Part shown: piece after piece, positions 1,560 to 52,813 of the stretch
Layout: every line of letters begins with the position of its first letter
How positions within the stretch are numbered: the stretch's first letter is position 1
The notes under the pieces: generated by a model
The model's input: the letters and a program-made list of their open reading frames with translations, nothing else
What the model was told of the DNA's origin: nothing
Database searches by the model: none
Translations under genes and position numbers: made by a program
Assembly: GCA_030065975.1 (NCBI GenBank)
Contig: JASJCN010000006.1
Coordinates: forward strand, 1-58,090
DNA length: 58,090 nt
From: Myxococcota bacterium
GTDB taxonomy: Bacteria > Myxococcota_A > UBA9160 > UBA6930
Direction of reading: 5' to 3'

Positions 1560-2454
1560 CGTCACCCGCCGCACGGCCATCGCCGGGATCGGCGCCACCC
1601 TGGGTGTGGCGGCCTTCGCCAAGGTGATGGAGCCCGTGCGCGAGTTCACCAAGGACCTCTCGCTCGACCAGTTCCTGCAGCGCCACTACCGCGAGCTCTC
1701 GCCCGAGGACATCCAGGGCGTCCTGCGTCGCATCGAGGAGGACACGCTCCGCGAGCGCGGAGCCAGGGTGCAGGTCGCGGACGACAAGCCGATCCCCGGC
1801 GTGCAGTTCGGCTACGCCCTGAACCTCTCGGTGTGCAACGGCTGCCGGAAGTGTGCCGAGGCCTGCCACGAAGAGAACAACCACGACCGCGCCACCAACC
1901 AGTCCTACATCCGGGTCTTCGAGATGGAGCAGGGCAGCCTCGACTTCGAGCACGCCTCCGCGACCTACGACCACGCCGTCCCGGCCCCGGGCAAGTACTA
2001 CATGCCCGTCCAGTGCCAGCAGTGCGACGACGCGCCGTGCGTCTCCGTCTGCCCCGTCGAGGCGACGTGGAAGGAGGAGGACGGCGTCGTGGTCGTCGAC
2101 TACGACTGGTGCATCGGGTGTCGCTACTGCGAGGCCGCGTGCCCCTATCACGCCCGCCGCTTCAACTGGACCAAGCCCGAGATCCCGGCAGAGGAGATCA
2201 ACCCGGACCAGGGCTACCTCTCGAATCGCGTCCGGCCTCAGGGCGTGGTCGAGAAGTGCCACTTCTGTCTTCACCGCACGCGGCGGGGCAAGCTGCCGGC
2301 GTGTGCGGAGGCCTGTCCCACCGGCGCGCGCGTCTTCGGCAACCTGCTCGACCCCGAGTCGCCGATCCGCTGGGTGCTCGCCAACAAGCGCGTGTTCGTG
2401 CTCAAGGAAGAGCTGGGAACGCGCCCGCGATTCTTCTACTTCTTCGACTCCTGA
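1552..2454 (+). CDS. Periplasmic 4x[4Fe-4S] ferredoxin-type subunit (DmsB/NrfC/HybA-like)
   Basis: Electron-transfer subunit that pairs with the NrfD membrane protein encoded next. The N-terminus MSDVTRRTAIAGIG reads as a Tat signal (RR followed by a hydrophobic stretch), consistent with export of a folded Fe-S protein. Sixteen cysteines fall in four cluster motifs: C95/98/101/105, C155/158/163/167, C187/190/193/197 and C236/239/251/255, the usual order of the DmsB/NrfC/PsrB family. The ATG at 1552 was chosen because it has a GGAGGAGG-like site just upstream and overlaps the stop of the previous gene, implying translational coupling. In canonical nap operons this job is done by NapG/NapH; the NrfC-like form here marks a different quinol-oxidising module. 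Confidence 0.9.
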   Translation: MSDVTRRTAIAGIGATLGVAAFAKVMEPVREFTKDLSLDQFLQRHYRELSPEDIQGVLRRIEEDTLRERGARVQVADDKPIPGVQFGYALNLSVCNGCRKCAEACHEENNHDRATNQSYIRVFEMEQGSLDFEHASATYDHAVPAPGKYYMPVQCQQCDDAPCVSVCPVEATWKEEDGVVVVDYDWCIGCRYCEAACPYHARRFNWTKPEIPAEEINPDQGYLSNRVRPQGVVEKCHFCLHRTRRGKLPACAEACPTGARVFGNLLDPESPIRWVLANKRVFVLKEELGTRPRFFYFFDS

Positions 2455-3998: not shown

Positions 3999-6415
3999 TG
4001 GAACTCGATCGAAGGAGCTTCGTGAAGCTCACGGCGATGGCGGCCGCCACCGCCGCGGCGGGCAGCGGGGAGACCGCCGATGCCGCGCCCGATCCCCAGG
4101 CGGGCGTCACGTGGGACAAGGCACCGTGTCGCTTCTGCGGAACCGGCTGCCACGTCCAGGTCGGCGTGAAGCAGGGGCGGGTGGTCGCCGTGGCCGGAGA
4201 CCGGAAGGCCGACGTGAACCGCGGCCTCCTGTGCGTGAAGGGCTACCACGTGGGCCTCGCGCTCTACGGCGAGGACCGGCTCACGACGCCGCTCCTCAAG
4301 CAGGGCGGCAAGCACGTGCCCATTTCCTGGGACCGCGCCCTCGACGTCATCGCCGAGCGCATCCTGGCCGACCCCGGGGGCTTCGCCATCTACGGCAGCG
4401 GCCAGTGGACCATTCCCGAGGGCTATGCGGCGCAGAAGCTCATGAAGGCCGGGCTCTCCAACAACCACATCGACCCGAATGCACGGCTGTGCATGGCGTC
4501 CGCCGTCACGGGCTTCCTGGCTACCTACGGGGTGGACGAGCCCGCGGGCTGCTACGACGACCTCGACGCGTGCGACGTGCTGATCAACTGGGGCAACAAC
4601 CCGGCCGAGATGCATCCGATCCTGTTCTCGCGGGTGATCGATCGGAGGTCGCGCGGGGAGGAGGTCACGATCATCGACCTCTCCACGCGGCGAACACGAA
4701 GCACCGGCTACGCGAACCACTACCTCGAGTTCCGCCCCCACACCGATCTCGCGGTCGCCAACGGGATCCTGCACCTGCTGATCGCGAACGACACCTGGCA
4801 CCAGGAGTTCGTCGAGCAGCACTGCGCGTTCAAGGCCGACTCGGAGCCACCGTCTCTGCACGGCCGGTCCATTTCGTTCGAGGAGTTCAAGGCGGGGATC
4901 GCCGAGTGGACGCCCGAGCGGGTCGAGGAGGTCTCCGGGGTTCCGGCGCGCGACATCCGCATGCTCGGCGATCTGTTCGGAAGGCGGGACCTGCGCATCA
5001 CCAGCCTCTGGTGCATGGGGATGAACCAGCACACCCGCGGCACCGCGATCAACACGCTGGTGCATGCGTGCCATCTGCTCTCGGGCCACTTCGGTCGCCC
5101 CGGGGACGCACCGACCAGCCTCACGGGGCAGCCGTCGGCGTGTGGCACCGCGCGCGAGGTCGGGACCCTCGCGCACCTGCTCCCGGGCGGGCGTCTGGTC
5201 GAGAACGCCGAACATCGCAAGCAGGCGGAGGAGATCTGGGGCCTACCGGCCGGGCGCATCCGCGACAAGATGGGGTACCACACGGTCAAGATGTTCGAGC
5301 AGTGGAGCAAGCCCGCTGCCGAAGGGGGCGACGTGTCCACGCTCTGGGTGCAGGTGACGAACCCGGGCCAGACGCTTCCCAACCGCCACAAGCTCTTCGA
5401 CCCCGGCGTCGCGGACCCCGACAAGTTCCTGATCGTGTCCGACGTGTATCCGACGGCCACGACCGTCGGGGCCGACCTCATCCTGCCCTCCGCCATGTGG
5501 GTCGAGAAGAACGGGATCTTCGGCAACTCCGAACGTCGGACGCAGCAGTGGTTCAAGATGGTCGACCCGCCGGGAGACGCGCGGGACGACGTGTGGCAGG
5601 TGATCGCCGTCGCGCGGCGCCTGCACGAAAAGGGTCACGAGGGCATGAAGGACGCGTCCGGCGCCTTCCTCTTCGATGTGCGCGACGCCTCGGGCGAGGC
5701 CGTCCCGGTCTGGGACTGGAAGCGCTTCCGCGACTTCAACGTCGACCGGGCGCTCTTCGACGAGTACCGGAGCTTCTCGCGGCTGAAGCACAAGGACCTG
5801 GCTCCCTACGACGTCTACGTGAAGGCTCGCGGTCTGCGCTGGCCGGTCGTCGAGCAGCCGGACGGGAGCTGGCGCGAGACGCGTTTCCGCTTCTCGGGCT
5901 TCGACGACCCCTACGTGGCCGAGGGCAAGGAGTTCGACTTCTACCACTCGCCCACGAAGGACGGCCGCGCCCAGATCTGGCTTCGCCCCGTCGATCCGCC
6001 GCCCGAGTCGCCCGATGCGGAGTGGCCCCTCTGGCTGTGCACCGGGCGCGTCCTCGAGCACTGGCACACGGCCTCGATGACCATGCGGATTCCGCCGCTT
6101 CGGCGGGCCATGCCCAACGCCTACGTCGAGATGCATCGCGACGACGCGCGCTCGCTGGGGGTCGACGACGGAGAGGTGGTGGTCGTGGAGACGCGCCGCG
6201 GCTCGATCGAGCTGCCCGTCTGGATCGGAGGCCGCGGGGATCCGCCGGTCGGAACGCTCTTCGTGCCGTTCTTCGACGAGGATCGCCTGATCAACGACCT
6301 GACCCTCGACGCCCACGATCCCTTCTCGAAGCAGCCGGACTTCAAGAAGTGCGCGGCGCGGGTGCGCAAGCGCTCGCCTTTCGCCGAGCCGCTGCGAGAG
6401 GGGGCGGATGGCTAG
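3998..6415 (+). CDS. napA: NapA, periplasmic nitrate reductase catalytic subunit
   Basis: Molybdenum enzyme that reduces nitrate to nitrite in the periplasm. It has a Tat signal (DRRSFVK, residues 4-10), a [4Fe-4S] site C44-C47-C51-C79 in the context CRFCGTGCHV...GLLCVKGY, and the NapA block GSGQWTIPEGYAAQKLMKAG leading to NARLCMASAV, in which C165 is the expected molybdenum ligand. A long C-terminal molydopterin-dinucleotide-binding domain follows. At 805 residues it has the family length. The ATG at 3998 overlaps the napD stop; a GTG one codon earlier is possible. The Mo ligand is Cys, as in nitrate reductases, and not Sec or Ser, so a formate or sulfur-compound function is less likely. Confidence 0.96.
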   Translation: MELDRRSFVKLTAMAAATAAAGSGETADAAPDPQAGVTWDKAPCRFCGTGCHVQVGVKQGRVVAVAGDRKADVNRGLLCVKGYHVGLALYGEDRLTTPLLKQGGKHVPISWDRALDVIAERILADPGGFAIYGSGQWTIPEGYAAQKLMKAGLSNNHIDPNARLCMASAVTGFLATYGVDEPAGCYDDLDACDVLINWGNNPAEMHPILFSRVIDRRSRGEEVTIIDLSTRRTRSTGYANHYLEFRPHTDLAVANGILHLLIANDTWHQEFVEQHCAFKADSEPPSLHGRSISFEEFKAGIAEWTPERVEEVSGVPARDIRMLGDLFGRRDLRITSLWCMGMNQHTRGTAINTLVHACHLLSGHFGRPGDAPTSLTGQPSACGTAREVGTLAHLLPGGRLVENAEHRKQAEEIWGLPAGRIRDKMGYHTVKMFEQWSKPAAEGGDVSTLWVQVTNPGQTLPNRHKLFDPGVADPDKFLIVSDVYPTATTVGADLILPSAMWVEKNGIFGNSERRTQQWFKMVDPPGDARDDVWQVIAVARRLHEKGHEGMKDASGAFLFDVRDASGEAVPVWDWKRFRDFNVDRALFDEYRSFSRLKHKDLAPYDVYVKARGLRWPVVEQPDGSWRETRFRFSGFDDPYVAEGKEFDFYHSPTKDGRAQIWLRPVDPPPESPDAEWPLWLCTGRVLEHWHTASMTMRIPPLRRAMPNAYVEMHRDDARSLGVDDGEVVVVETRRGSIELPVWIGGRGDPPVGTLFVPFFDEDRLINDLTLDAHDPFSKQPDFKKCAARVRKRSPFAEPLREGADG

Positions 6416-14428: not shown

Positions 14429-14447
14429 ATGGCATAGTCAATGCCAT
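14429..14447. promoter_or_regulatory. Inverted repeat ATGGCAT-N5-ATGCCAT, possible operator
   Basis: A perfect 7-bp inverted repeat with a 5-nt spacer in the 73-bp divergent region between the CinA-like gene and the GST-like gene. It is AT-rich against a very GC-rich background and overlaps the likely promoter of the rightward gene. Dyads of this shape are typical binding sites of dimeric repressors. Confidence 0.45.
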
Positions 14448-14452
14448 ATTTT
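14447..14452 (+). promoter_or_regulatory. Possible -10 box TATTTT, 6 nt before the ATG at 14459
   Basis: TAnnnT hexamer directly beside the inverted repeat. Its distance from the ATG at 14459 would give a leaderless mRNA and argues against a start at 14441. Confidence 0.3.
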
Positions 14453-14458
14453 CCCGGG

Positions 14459-15550
14459 ATGCACCGCAACCACACCGACGCTCCCTACGTCCTCCACGGC
14501 TTCGAGGTCTCCTACTTCACGGCCAAGGTGCGTCCCGCCCTGCGCTACAAGGGCGTCTGGCTCGACGAGCGTCGCGCGGACATGCCCGAGATCATGCGTC
14601 GCACGGGCCTCGGCTTCATTCCGATGGTGGTCACGCCGGAAGACGAGACCTGGCAGGACTCGACCGAGATCTACCGGCGCCTCGAAGAGCGGCATCCCGA
14701 GCCGCCGCTGTTCCCGACGACGCCGCTCCAGCGCGTGGCGGCGCATCTCGTCGAGGTCTACTCGGACGAGTTCGCGCTGATCCCGGCCATGCACTACCGC
14801 TGGGGCAGCGAGCTCGGAGAGGCGTCCGCGCGTGCCCGCTTCAGCGCCATGACCGGGAGCGAGGCGATCGGCAACATGGCGGCCGATCGCATGACGAAGG
14901 CGCGCTTCGCCGTCGGCGCTTCGGTCGAGGCCGGCGAGGCGATCGAGGCGCATACCCACGACCTGCTGGCGGCACTGTCCGCGCACTTCGCCGAGCACCC
15001 CTACCTGTTGGGAGCTCGGGAATCCTTCGCCGACTGCGCCCTCATGGGTCCCCTCGACGGGCACTTCTTCTGCGACCTGGTGTCTCGCAGGCTTCTGCTC
15101 GAGACGGCCTTCCAGGTCGTGGGCTGGATCGAGCGTTGCAAGTTCCCGAACGCCGAAGACCAGGGGGAGTGGCTCGACGACGATGCGCTCGCGCCCTCCT
15201 TCATCGAGGTCCTCGGCTGCATGGGTCGCGACGCGGTGCCGCTGCTCCTCGAGGTGCTGCGGGAGCTCGAGAGCTGGGCCGACTCCCGGCCTGCCGATCT
15301 GGCCGAGCTGCCTAGGGCGGTGGGCCTGTGCAAGAGCTCGCTGCGCGGAACGCCCATCGAGCGGGCCGTGATGCCCTACACCCTGTACAGCGTCCAGGGT
15401 CTCCTCGACGCGTTTCGAAGCTTCGACGCCGCCAATCGCGACCGCATCCAAGGGTCGCTCGCCGGGACGGGATGGCCCGAGCTCCTCGCCTACACGCCTC
15501 GGCACCGCCTCGGCAAGGACGGGTTCCGGCTCGTCTTCGAGTCGTCCTAG
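14459..15550 (+). CDS. Glutathione S-transferase-fold protein with long C-terminal extension (paralogue 2)
   Basis: 363 residues, same architecture as the minus-strand gene at 9707-10807. N-domain: YVLHGFEVSYFTAKVRPALR and FIPMVVTPEDETWQDSTEIY; C-domain: HFAEHPYLLGARESFADCALMG. The remaining C-terminal third (including SLRGTPIERAVMPYTLYSVQG) has no GST counterpart. The second ATG of the frame (14459) was chosen because the first lies inside the inverted repeat and because a TATTTT box sits 6 nt upstream. A role in glutathione-dependent detoxification is inferred from the fold only. Its stop shares CTAG with the convergent redoxin gene. Confidence 0.82.
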   Translation: MHRNHTDAPYVLHGFEVSYFTAKVRPALRYKGVWLDERRADMPEIMRRTGLGFIPMVVTPEDETWQDSTEIYRRLEERHPEPPLFPTTPLQRVAAHLVEVYSDEFALIPAMHYRWGSELGEASARARFSAMTGSEAIGNMAADRMTKARFAVGASVEAGEAIEAHTHDLLAALSAHFAEHPYLLGARESFADCALMGPLDGHFFCDLVSRRLLLETAFQVVGWIERCKFPNAEDQGEWLDDDALAPSFIEVLGCMGRDAVPLLLEVLRELESWADSRPADLAELPRAVGLCKSSLRGTPIERAVMPYTLYSVQGLLDAFRSFDAANRDRIQGSLAGTGWPELLAYTPRHRLGKDGFRLVFESS

Positions 15551-16206
15551 GGACGCTTCTCGGGAACGAACTTCCGCGCCGCCTCGAGCAGTGCCTCGTT
15601 CTCGGGGCGCACGCGGTAGTCCTCGTTCGAGTACACCCAGAGGATCTCGCCGCCCTTCCCGACCAGGAAGACGCTCGGCACCGGCAGCTGGTGATGGGCC
15701 CTCCCGGCCGCCGCCTCGAGGTCGATCCCGAAGCCCTCGTAGCGCTTCACCGCCTCGGCATCGAGCTGGAACGCGATCCCGAAGGCGCGCGCAGCCTCCA
15801 TGCTGCGATCGGAGTAGAGCTCGTAGCCCAGGTCCTCGACTTTCAGGCTGGCGAGCATGCGCTCCGGTCGATCGGGGCTGATGGCGACCACGCGGAAGCC
15901 CAGAGACTCGAGCTCGGGCTCGACCTTGCGCAGCTCGCCGAGCTGCGTGTTGCAGTACGGTCACCAGCCGCCGCGATAGAAGACGAGAAGCACGCCCGAT
16001 TCGCGCGCGAGCTCGGTGAGATCGACCCGCCCGCCGGCGAGGGTCTCGACCTCGGCGGAGGGGACGGACGTTCCCACGGAGAGCGGGCGCGTGTCGGCGG
16101 CGCTCGGGTGCACCGGACCGGCGTGGGCACCCACGCTGAGCCCGCCGAGTGCGAGCCAGGCTGCCGTCGAGAAGGCGATCGAACGGTATCCGCGCGAGAT
16201 CGGCAT
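15547..16206 (-). CDS. Peroxiredoxin-like (AhpC/TSA) selenoprotein with in-frame UGA (Sec82)
   Basis: Exported thiol-redox protein of 219 residues if UGA at 15961-15963 is read as selenocysteine. The N-terminus has a signal peptide (AAWLALGGLSVGAHAG). The sequence then runs LLVFYRGGW-UGA-PYCNTQLGEL, and the family has FYRGGWCPYCN at this place, so the stop falls exactly on the first cysteine of the CxxC-like active site and C85 remains. The same frame continues for 137 codons with family-like sequence (GFRVVAISPDRPERM, VPSVFLVGKGGEILWVY) up to a TAG. A hairpin starting 14 nt after the UGA fits the bacterial SECIS pattern. A sequencing error or pseudogene would not be expected to hit precisely this codon. 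Likely peroxide or disulfide reduction; its partner is unknown. Confidence 0.85.
15929..15947 (-). promoter_or_regulatory. Putative bacterial SECIS element
   Basis: Minus-strand RNA CGCAGCUC-GGC-GAGCUGCG: 8 bp of perfect stem with the triloop GGC. The loop begins 21 nt after the UGA and its first two bases are G, matching the usual description of bacterial SECIS elements (apical loop 16-37 nt from UGA, G in the first two loop positions). It lies inside the coding sequence, as bacterial SECIS elements do. Confidence 0.7.
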
Positions 16207-49870: not shown

Positions 49871-52813
49871 ATGATCGCCCGACGCCCGCTCCGCGCCCTC
49901 ATCGCCCTGCTCGTCTCGTTCGCCTGGCTCGCCACTCCGTCCGGGGCCGCCGTCAAGCGCCACGAGGCCACGGGACACCTGACCTTCGACAGCCCGCAGT
50001 CCGACCCGATGGCGCTCTCGCCGGACGGCACCCTGCTGCTCGTGGCGAGCACGACGAGCGGGCTCGTGGACGTGATCGACACCGGCACCAACACCGTGGT
50101 CGCGAAGGTCGAGGTCGGCATGGAGCCCGTGGGCGTCGCCTTCAAGCCGGACGGCAGCGAGGCCTGGGTCACCAACCACGTCTCGGACAGCGTCTCCGTG
50201 ATCGACACCGCCAGCGCGAGCGCCAGCTACCTCGAGGTGGTGGAGACGATCCAGAGCCTGAACGGCGGCGTGACCGAGTTCGACGAGCCGGTGGGCGTGG
50301 TCTTCGCGAGCAACGCCAAGGCCTACGTCTCGCTCTCCTCCATCAACCAGATCGCCATCATCGACGCCAACACCTACAGCGTGACCGGCACCCTGGACGT
50401 GACCGCCCAGGATCCGCGCGCGATGCGCGTCGCCAACGGCCGCCTCTACGTCGCGTCCTTCGAGTCCTTCAACCAGTCCCAGCTCTCGATCTGCGGGAAC
50501 CTGAACGGCACGAACCAGATCGGCGACCCCTGCTCCATGGGCCTGCTCGAGCTCGTGATCTTCGCCCAGAACCCGAACCTCCCGAACAGCATCAAGAACA
50601 TCGTCATCAACCCGGACCTGCCCGACCGGGACCTCTTCGTCTACAACACCAACAACGACAACCTGATCAAGACCGTGTCGGGTATCGGCACCCTGCTCTA
50701 CGGCCTGGCCGTCGACGCCAACGACGTCGTCTACGTCACCCAGACCGACGCCCGCAACGCCGTGAACGGCGACCACGACGACGTCCTCGACAGCCTCGAC
50801 AACGAGATGTTCGACAACCTGGTCTCGGTGCTCGACTGCGGAGTGGGCGGAGGGAGCTGCTCGACCGTGAACACCGTCGATCTCGACCCGGTCGGCGGGA
50901 GCCACGCCCAGGCCCTGGCGACGCCCTACGGCGTCGACGTCTCGGACGACGGCAACACGGTTCTGGCCACGGCCATGGGCACCCACCGCGTCTTCTCGAT
51001 GGACTCGGCCGGCAACGTCCTCGACCGCCTCGACGTGGGGAAGCTCCCCAAGGGCGTGCTGGTGGTCTCGAACGGGACGACCGGCGCCGCCGAGACGGCC
51101 TACGTGCTCAACACGCTGGACAACACCGTCTCGGTGGTGGACGCGTCGAACCCGTCCAACCTGTCCGTGACCGCGACCATCCCGGTCGGGGACGATCCGA
51201 CTCCCGCCGCCGTCCGCCGCGGCCGCATCGCCTTCAACGACGCGTTCGCCTCGGACACGGGCAACTTCTCCTGCGGCAGCTGCCACCCCGACTCGCACAC
51301 CGACCAGCTGCTGTGGCGCATCGGCGGCGCCTGCCCGCTGCTCGGTTGTGGCAACGGGGACGAGCCCCGCTCGACGATGCCCGTGCGGGGCCTGCGAGAC
51401 TCCGAGCCCCTGCACTGGGGCGGCGAGCTCGGCGACCCCTTCGGCGGCGGCGACGGCAGCGTGGGCGTCCAGACCGGCGGCGGAAACCCGCTGGCGGCTC
51501 CCAACTGCGACCCCGACGTGACCGACGGAAGCCCCAACACGACGACCTTCCCGACGCCCCCGAACGGCGACTGCATGCGCCAGCTGGTCGACGCCGCGCT
51601 CTCGGGTGTGATGTGCGACCAGACCGGCGGCTGCGGGATCGGGCCCTCGGGGTCGGTGGGGCAGCTCACGAACCAGGAGCGCAAGGACATGGCCGTCTTC
51701 CTGCGCAGCGTCAGCTACCCCGTGGCCCGCAAGCGACCCATCGACGACGACGTGACCGCGCTGGCCGAGACGGGCTTCAAGGAGTTCTTCATGGACATGG
51801 GCGGCCAGGGCCCGAGCACCTGCGCCGACTCCGACGCGGGCTGTCACGAGCTGCCGCTCGGCACCTCCACCAATGCGGAGACCCTGGCGAACTTCGACGC
51901 GCCCACCATGCGCGGCATGATGGACCGCTATCTGCAGTTCTCCATGGGCGTGACCCTGGCCGAGGATCTCTTCGCCATCGCGGAGACGGGGATCAGCTTC
52001 GGCGGGTTCAACCTCGACCCGGTGGACCCGCAGTTCGCCTTCGATCCGGCGGTCGGCCTGCGGGAGGAGGCGACCCTCGGTGTGTCGTTCCTGCTCTTCA
52101 ACTTCTTCTACAACGCGGAGCTCGAGAACTTCATCCAGATGACCGAGGAGGCGAGCAACGGGCACTCGGGCGCGCTGGGCCGCCAGGTGACGCTCAACAC
52201 CTCGACCACCGGCGGCGGCAGCCTCGCCGCGACTGAGTCGCTGCTGGCCTCGCTCGAGGCGGCGGACGCCCGGGGCGCCGTGAACCTGCGGGGCCCGGCG
52301 CTCTTCCAGGGCGCGACGGCCGTGCTCTCGTATCACGCGCCGACGAACCAGTACCGCCTCGACGCCATCAACAAGACCCGGGCGCAGGTCCTGGCCGACG
52401 CCCAGAACGGCCTGCTCCTCGCGACCCTGACGGCCCACCTGAAGAGCGGCGTGAACGAGAGCAAGCCGCAGCCGCTGATCGCGCCGGTCTCCGCCAACTG
52501 CGGGACGGGCAACGGACCGACCGGCGACCCCGCGCTGCCCTCTGGCAGCGTGCTCGCGATCGAGGGCAAGCACGTGACCGCCGCGCACACGGTGATCGTC
52601 GACGGCGTCGTGGATGCCGGGGCGAGCATCGCCGTCGGAGGCGGCGCGGCCTGCGCCCTGGCCGGCGAGGATTCGGTCGCGACCGATCAGCTGACGGTCA
52701 CGCTCTCCTCGAGCCCGAGCAACGGCATGCACCTGCTCCAGGTGCAGAGCGCGGACGGCCTGCAGAGCAACGAGCTGCCCTTCTGCGTGCCGTCCGGGTC
52801 GGACTGCCGCTAG
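49871..52813 (+). CDS. Exported YncE-like beta-propeller fused to a cytochrome c region
   Basis: 980 residues. Signal peptide (LIALLVSFAWLATPSGAA). Residues about 40-450 repeat the YncE/NHL propeller motif (PMALSPDGTLLLVASTTSG, PVGVAFKPDGSEAWVTNHVS, YVLNTLDNTVSVVD). Then comes a cytochrome part with one canonical heme site, C468-GSC-H472. A second C...CH is present at C651 and C658-H659 but with six residues between the cysteines instead of two. The end (IEGKHVTAAHTVIVDGV to LQVQSADGLQSNELPF) resembles an IPT/TIG-like domain. Likely periplasmic or surface oxidoreductase or electron carrier, function unknown. GGGAGGC precedes the ATG. Confidence 0.78.
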   Translation: MIARRPLRALIALLVSFAWLATPSGAAVKRHEATGHLTFDSPQSDPMALSPDGTLLLVASTTSGLVDVIDTGTNTVVAKVEVGMEPVGVAFKPDGSEAWVTNHVSDSVSVIDTASASASYLEVVETIQSLNGGVTEFDEPVGVVFASNAKAYVSLSSINQIAIIDANTYSVTGTLDVTAQDPRAMRVANGRLYVASFESFNQSQLSICGNLNGTNQIGDPCSMGLLELVIFAQNPNLPNSIKNIVINPDLPDRDLFVYNTNNDNLIKTVSGIGTLLYGLAVDANDVVYVTQTDARNAVNGDHDDVLDSLDNEMFDNLVSVLDCGVGGGSCSTVNTVDLDPVGGSHAQALATPYGVDVSDDGNTVLATAMGTHRVFSMDSAGNVLDRLDVGKLPKGVLVVSNGTTGAAETAYVLNTLDNTVSVVDASNPSNLSVTATIPVGDDPTPAAVRRGRIAFNDAFASDTGNFSCGSCHPDSHTDQLLWRIGGACPLLGCGNGDEPRSTMPVRGLRDSEPLHWGGELGDPFGGGDGSVGVQTGGGNPLAAPNCDPDVTDGSPNTTTFPTPPNGDCMRQLVDAALSGVMCDQTGGCGIGPSGSVGQLTNQERKDMAVFLRSVSYPVARKRPIDDDVTALAETGFKEFFMDMGGQGPSTCADSDAGCHELPLGTSTNAETLANFDAPTMRGMMDRYLQFSMGVTLAEDLFAIAETGISFGGFNLDPVDPQFAFDPAVGLREEATLGVSFLLFNFFYNAELENFIQMTEEASNGHSGALGRQVTLNTSTTGGGSLAATESLLASLEAADARGAVNLRGPALFQGATAVLSYHAPTNQYRLDAINKTRAQVLADAQNGLLLATLTAHLKSGVNESKPQPLIAPVSANCGTGNGPTGDPALPSGSVLAIEGKHVTAAHTVIVDGVVDAGASIAVGGGAACALAGEDSVATDQLTVTLSSSPSNGMHLLQVQSADGLQSNELPFCVPSGSDCR

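Follow-up and report, generated by a model that had tools for sequence, protein, structure and literature searches.

Reading frame and hairpin at the locus

The window, that is, the whole stretch of 58,090 nucleotides that was analysed, comes from a Myxococcota bacterium and carries on its minus strand a frame of 81 codons that begins with ATG and ends in LLVFYRGGW, followed by a TGA codon and then by PYCNTQLGEL. Downstream of the TGA the frame stays open for 137 codons (83 to 219), up to a TAG (Table 1). This frame had been described in the initial annotation, and it was confirmed both by translation and by a Pfam match of the read-through protein to AhpC-TSA (4.8e-24, residues 44 to 189) which covers the two sides of the TGA. 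We consider that this is very probably a selenoprotein gene, in which the tRNA-Sec system of the cell is predicted to read the TGA at codon 82 as selenocysteine (Sec). The UGA is very likely to stand for Sec because relatives have Cys at this site and because a hairpin-forming sequence is present in 15 out of 15 copies of the gene. It must be noted that standard gene callers split or lose TGA genes of this type, and for this reason the oxidant-defence proteins of this group are probably under-annotated.

Table 1. Features of the predicted selenoprotein gene, in window positions
Feature	Position	Strand	Description or basis
Very probable selenoprotein gene, 219-residue Prx-like protein	15547..16206	-	ATG at 16206, TAG at 15549-15547, single in-frame TGA
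In-frame TGA, codon 82, predicted Sec	15961..15963	-	TGA in 15/15 class orthologues; Cys in 66 and TGA in 14 of 80 wider relatives
Cys85 codon, second residue of UxxC	15952..15954	-	Alignment with the peroxidatic Cys/Sec of true peroxiredoxins
N-terminal signal-peptide-like stretch, about residues 1-29, AHA-G	16120..16206	-	Translation, by eye
Putative bacterial SECIS hairpin	15929..15947	-	Stem CGCAGCTC 15947-15940, loop GGC 15939-15937, stem GAGCTGCG 15936-15929

Our own script, used in place of bSECISearch, found a hairpin of bSECIS type after the TGA, with a stem of 8 bp and a loop of 3 nt that lies 21 nt past the TGA. As the bSECIS model is described in PMC13188914, the stem has 4 to 16 bp, the loop has 3 to 9 nt with a G within its first two positions, and this loop lies 16 to 37 nt after the UGA; the window hairpin agrees with all the constraints given in that description. 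Taken by itself, this hairpin is not unusual for such a protein: when the protein sequence was kept constant and codons were sampled according to the coding usage of the window, two runs gave P values of 0.0766 and 0.0845 (P of about 0.08), because at 71% GC the DNA coding for QLGEL often folds in this way.

TGA and cysteine forms among relatives

Of the 90 class genomes searched, 15 have a close orthologue (E 1e-40 or better), and the genome of the window is one of these 15. All 15 have exactly one in-frame stop, which is a TGA and is always the codon before PYC. At the same threshold no orthologue was found in the other 75 genomes, including the sole genome of the same genus (G011), and the distribution across the class is patchy. 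The initial annotation had asked for the UGA to be confirmed in independent reads, and the same TGA in the orthologues of other assemblies speaks in its favour; since the 15 close orthologues have it at the same codon, it is due neither to chance nor to a read error. In addition, the mean pN/pS was 0.44 after the TGA vs. 0.61 in the 40 codons before it (91 pairs from 14 genes), these values being rough, with pS of 0.50 to 0.56 and thus near saturation, and purifying selection seems to act on the frame downstream of the TGA.

In this regard, the TGA might be put down to an error of sequencing, or to a nonsense mutation of recent date that made a pseudogene of the gene of a Cys protein, on the grounds that there is just one TGA, that it comes from one draft assembly and that Cys homologues are common. 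This explanation is extremely improbable given that all 15 orthologues, which come from different assemblies, have the TGA at this very codon, that the frame beyond it appears to be selected and that the hairpin is kept in the orthologues. The hairpin sequence CGCAGCTC-GGN-GAGCTGCG retains its stem in 15 of 15 of them, one with a G.U pair, and the third loop base is variable (C, G, T or A). Among 14 orthologues, the codons of the stem were Leu CTC (14/14), Leu CTG (13/14), Gln CAG (14/14) and Glu GAG (14/14), and all four forms of the Gly codon were used in the loop. As for seven other invariant Leu columns, six were more mixed than the stem Leu and one (+48) had CTC in 13 of 14.

A separate genome scan gave at least 546 confirmed loci, the best 80 of which were kept; its peptide patterns (LVFYRGGW and one starting with CPYC) are biased to this subfamily and its Cys forms. 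Among these best 80 of at least 546 loci, the residue-82 codon was TGA in 14, TGC in 38 and TGT in 28 (66 Cys). As a stretch of 240 bases showed no difference between 13 of the 14 TGA loci and 13 members of the class set, these were taken as the same genomes. The 14th was an Acidobacteria MAG (L162), in which the stem is another one and has 6 bp (GCAGCT-CGGGA-AGCTGC, at 20 nt). Within the same best 80 of at least 546 loci, the best bSECIS score had a mean of 21.4 in the 14 TGA loci vs. 6.5 in the 66 Cys loci, and a stem of 7 bp or more was present in 13/14 vs. 7/66, respectively, while scores of 18 or more were also reached in 4 of the 66 Cys loci. The rank-test P of 1.4e-9 obtained for the scores of TGA vs. 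Cys loci is too strong, because the loci are related.

Cys was present at both 82 and 85 in 70 of 70 aligned database proteins (chosen from 120 listed of 5685) which, together with the 66 Cys and 14 TGA loci of the best 80, bears out the homology to Cys proteins on which the initial annotation had relied. Two close relatives excluded from this alignment, the JGI proteins P0005 and P0006, have Trp at the Sec position (GWWPYC), probably reflecting a TGA that was translated as Trp by the source. Another relative, L024 (G012:C62), has two TGA codons three codons apart (WUPKU), giving a UxxU motif. A match was found in 103 plasmid records, every one with less than 60% identity.

The tree comprised 96 rows, of which 15 were Sec, 79 Cys and 2 Trp. 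In it, the window gene belongs to a group of 20 rows with support of 100/98, made up of 13 with Sec, 5 with Cys and 2 with Trp. The Sec, Cys and Trp labels need at least five changes on this tree, and starred branches force two; for this reason, the subfamily has likely seen exchanges between the Sec and the Cys form, in either direction.

With respect to the neighbourhood, a Glutathione S-transferase-like gene (14441-15550, plus strand) converges on the selenoprotein gene, the 3′ ends overlapping by 4 bases, and no match to it was found beside the orthologues. The comparison of positions 5 to 27 kb of the window with the 14 TGA loci and their flanks of up to 5 kb (ORFs of at least 90 codons, E 1e-12) did not show any conserved operon, and the only matches came from the C-terminal frame of the TGA gene itself and from the frame antisense to it. 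The neighbours, therefore, give no function. A scan of the window for TGA within frames whose GC3 is coding-like before and after it gave 2452-2454 (plus strand), 52333-52335 (minus) and 5635-5637 (minus), and it is not sensitive, as its filter omitted the known TGA.

Fold, active site and proposed working of the protein

The structure model had a mean pLDDT of 90.6, with residues 1-30 as its low-confidence part, and replaced an earlier model from 4 sequences (pLDDT 68.1). A peroxiredoxin fold is predicted with high confidence: the closest solved structures by fold are peroxiredoxins, with Bcp and AhpE ranking above ResA, and the best single-sequence matches among solved structures are to ResA (4nmu, 8e-7; 3c71, 5.1e-5). 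The U-x2-C redoxin that had been proposed at the outset is consistent with the PF00578 domain with UxxC found here. None of the NCBIfam models reached its cut-off for the protein, the best being SelL_rel_redox (51.1 bits vs. 120).

The active-site motif of classical peroxiredoxins is PxxxT/SxxC. It is absent from the window protein, whose active site, R78-GGW-U82-PY-C85, has Arg for the Pro and Sec for the Thr of that motif. In the Sec peroxiredoxins (Prx, TxxU) found among the paralogues of the same genome, Sec stands in the Cys85 column, whereas the Sec of the window gene lies three residues earlier, in the Thr column of TxxU Prx, and therefore Sec82 is not the classical peroxidatic residue. 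The initial annotation had placed Sec at the active-site Cys, and one part of this stands, as the relatives have Cys at residue 82, but the peroxidatic residue of true peroxiredoxins is that of the Cys85 column instead.

Like the thiol-disulfide oxidoreductases ResA/TlpA, the protein has a CxxC-type redox pair at this place; unlike them, it has Sec for the first Cys, and its fold is nearer to the peroxiredoxins Bcp and AhpE. It is alike to the "Prx-like" UxxC selenoproteins in having PF00578, Sec in UxxC and Cys homologues (PMC13188914, PMC2398784), and the likeness to this published subfamily, which includes the review's member WP_010940744.1, is by description, domain and motif. Prx-like UxxC selenoproteins are already in print, and the window gene is a further member: they appear as Prx-like thiol:disulfide oxidoreductase in the table of a 2026 review (PMC13188914) and as Prx-like 1, pfam00578, in Table 2 of a 2008 ocean survey (PMC2398784), and the Prx-like thiol:disulfide oxidoreductase family is among those listed in PMC1794560 and PMC5029168.

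In the working that we propose, in which Sec decoding, chemistry and substrate are what we infer, SelB with Sec-tRNA-Sec would bind the hairpin 21 nt past the UGA and insert Sec, giving one chain of 219 residues. The predicted fold would place the redox pair Sec82-Pro-Tyr-Cys85 at the start of helix 83-93. There, Sec82 may attack an oxidised substrate, either a disulfide or a hydroperoxide, Cys85 would resolve the Sec82 adduct through a Se-S bond, and this bond would then be reduced by a thiol partner. Given the signal-peptide-like character of its N-terminus, the protein is predicted to be exported and would act outside the cytoplasm.

In known bacteria, the reading of UGA as Sec competes with termination. 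From this competition it could be argued that the gene gives two products, namely a protein of 81 residues, the last of them Trp81, and, as the minor product, the Sec read-through form, in a ratio set by the selenium supply. We find this very unlikely, as the short form would be devoid of the U-P-Y-C pair and of most of the predicted fold, and we favour a 219-residue selenoprotein as the product of the gene.

Selenocysteine machinery and other TGA genes of the genome

The window's assembly (G000) has 5.54 Mb in 369 contigs and is 85.5% complete. It contains a tRNA-Sec of 71.5 bits (gathering score, 47), reported by ARAGORN as tRNA-SeC with anticodon TCA, and a SelD of 247.6 bits (cut-off, 125) within an open frame of 845 residues; tRNA-Sec and SelD are each above cut-off in 13 of the 14 family genomes. 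SelA, present in 13 of the 14, was not found in G000, and SelB, above cut-off in 12 of the 14, was found neither in G000 nor in G005. Accordingly, the Sec machinery looked for in the same genome was encountered as regards selC and selD, but the search of this incomplete assembly yielded neither selA nor selB. With the selA region of G011, a genome of the same genus, as query (L052, selA at 1501), bases 8-410 aligned at 84% identity to bases 2-404 of contig C300, right at its beginning; because this contig ends about 1.1 kb short of the expected place of selA, the gene is likely missing on account of an assembly gap. The comparison of selB flanks gave only short scattered matches for G000, and the incompleteness of the assembly is the sole explanation at hand for the missing selB. 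The claim that residue 82 is decoded as Sec is supported by the Cys homologues, the hairpin, selC and selD, and the conserved TGA.

A second, marginal tRNA-Sec match (G000:C230:5344-5431, plus strand; 48.1 bits vs. 47) may be a tRNA of a different type with a long arm. In two other genomes, selD has an in-frame TGA (L074, G002:C351; L075, G004:C360), possibly encoding a Sec-containing SelD, and both genomes have a SelD with a long open frame elsewhere.

G000 has 18 PF00578 matches, 16 of them above the Pfam cut-off, and 12 of the 18 (11 of the 16) have one TGA each: L169, L170, L172-L176, L178, L181-L183 and L185, L176 being the window gene. By inspection, the TGA is at the redox site in all 12, the motifs being TFVU, TPGU (2), VWUPPC, HWUPYC (2), GWUPYC (window gene), HWUPFC, FGULFC, YTUPPF (2) and FWUPPC. 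Sec genes of G000 were counted in three Pfam families, and 12 is a lower bound; no in-frame stop was found in the matches of the other families, CMD (0/7) and DsbA (0/12).

A genome-wide reassignment of UGA (to Trp, as in code 4, or to Gly or Cys), in which selenium is not involved, would fit with the Trp of P0005 and P0006 at the site. It is, nevertheless, hardly credible: four of the 12 genes with an in-frame TGA also have TGA as their stop codon, so that this codon has both meanings in G000, the 12 genes have a single TGA apiece and at the redox site, the CMD and DsbA matches are free of in-frame stops, and both tRNA-Sec and SelD are present. Decoding of the UGA as Sec is the reading that we maintain. 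The Fisher combination of the hairpin over the 12 TGA genes was 1.3e-6, with paralogues that are not independent, and one of them, L170, had no hairpin beyond chance (P 0.97).

According to the definition given in PMC5029168, a selenoprotein-rich organism has six or more such genes, and G000 would be included in it with one Pfam family if the 12 are Sec genes. The distant relatives L172 (G000:C73), L021, L029 and L030 (VWUPPCWTQLGELR) also have CGCAGCTC-GGN-GAGCTGCG, and L172 is 31% identical to the window gene. We suggest only tentatively, and with rather more doubt than confidence, that this uncultured, high-GC Myxococcota class may be a selenoprotein-rich lineage on the AhpC/TSA fold, with Sec at either of two positions in one and the same active site, TxxU (peroxidatic site) and UxxC (thioredoxin-type site), among at least 12 genes of one genome and with a SECIS hairpin either kept or spread as a module with the QLGEL-coding stretch; the module is suggested by the use of the very same hairpin in paralogues so distant.

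Anaeromyxobacter dehalogenans is a myxobacterium. As 11 selenoproteins are listed for it in PMC1794560, the use of Sec in the phylum is not new. The extent of its use within one fold in the host group, as sampled here, may be new. The string "WUPYC" was not found in the PMC literature, and the matches obtained for selenoproteins of Myxococcota or myxobacteria were off topic, judged on titles and abstract starts. In addition, since a single subfamily has Sec and Cys forms next to each other in the tree, G000, with a Sec-type TGA in 12 of 18 AhpC/TSA matches, would be a good test bed for the choice of Sec over Cys by different lineages. Finally, the two YTUPPF proteins (L182 and L183) match the Pfam family T4_deiodinase (5.1e-25 and 8.2e-26, respectively), and deiodinase-like selenoproteins are included in the same table of the 2008 survey (PMC2398784).
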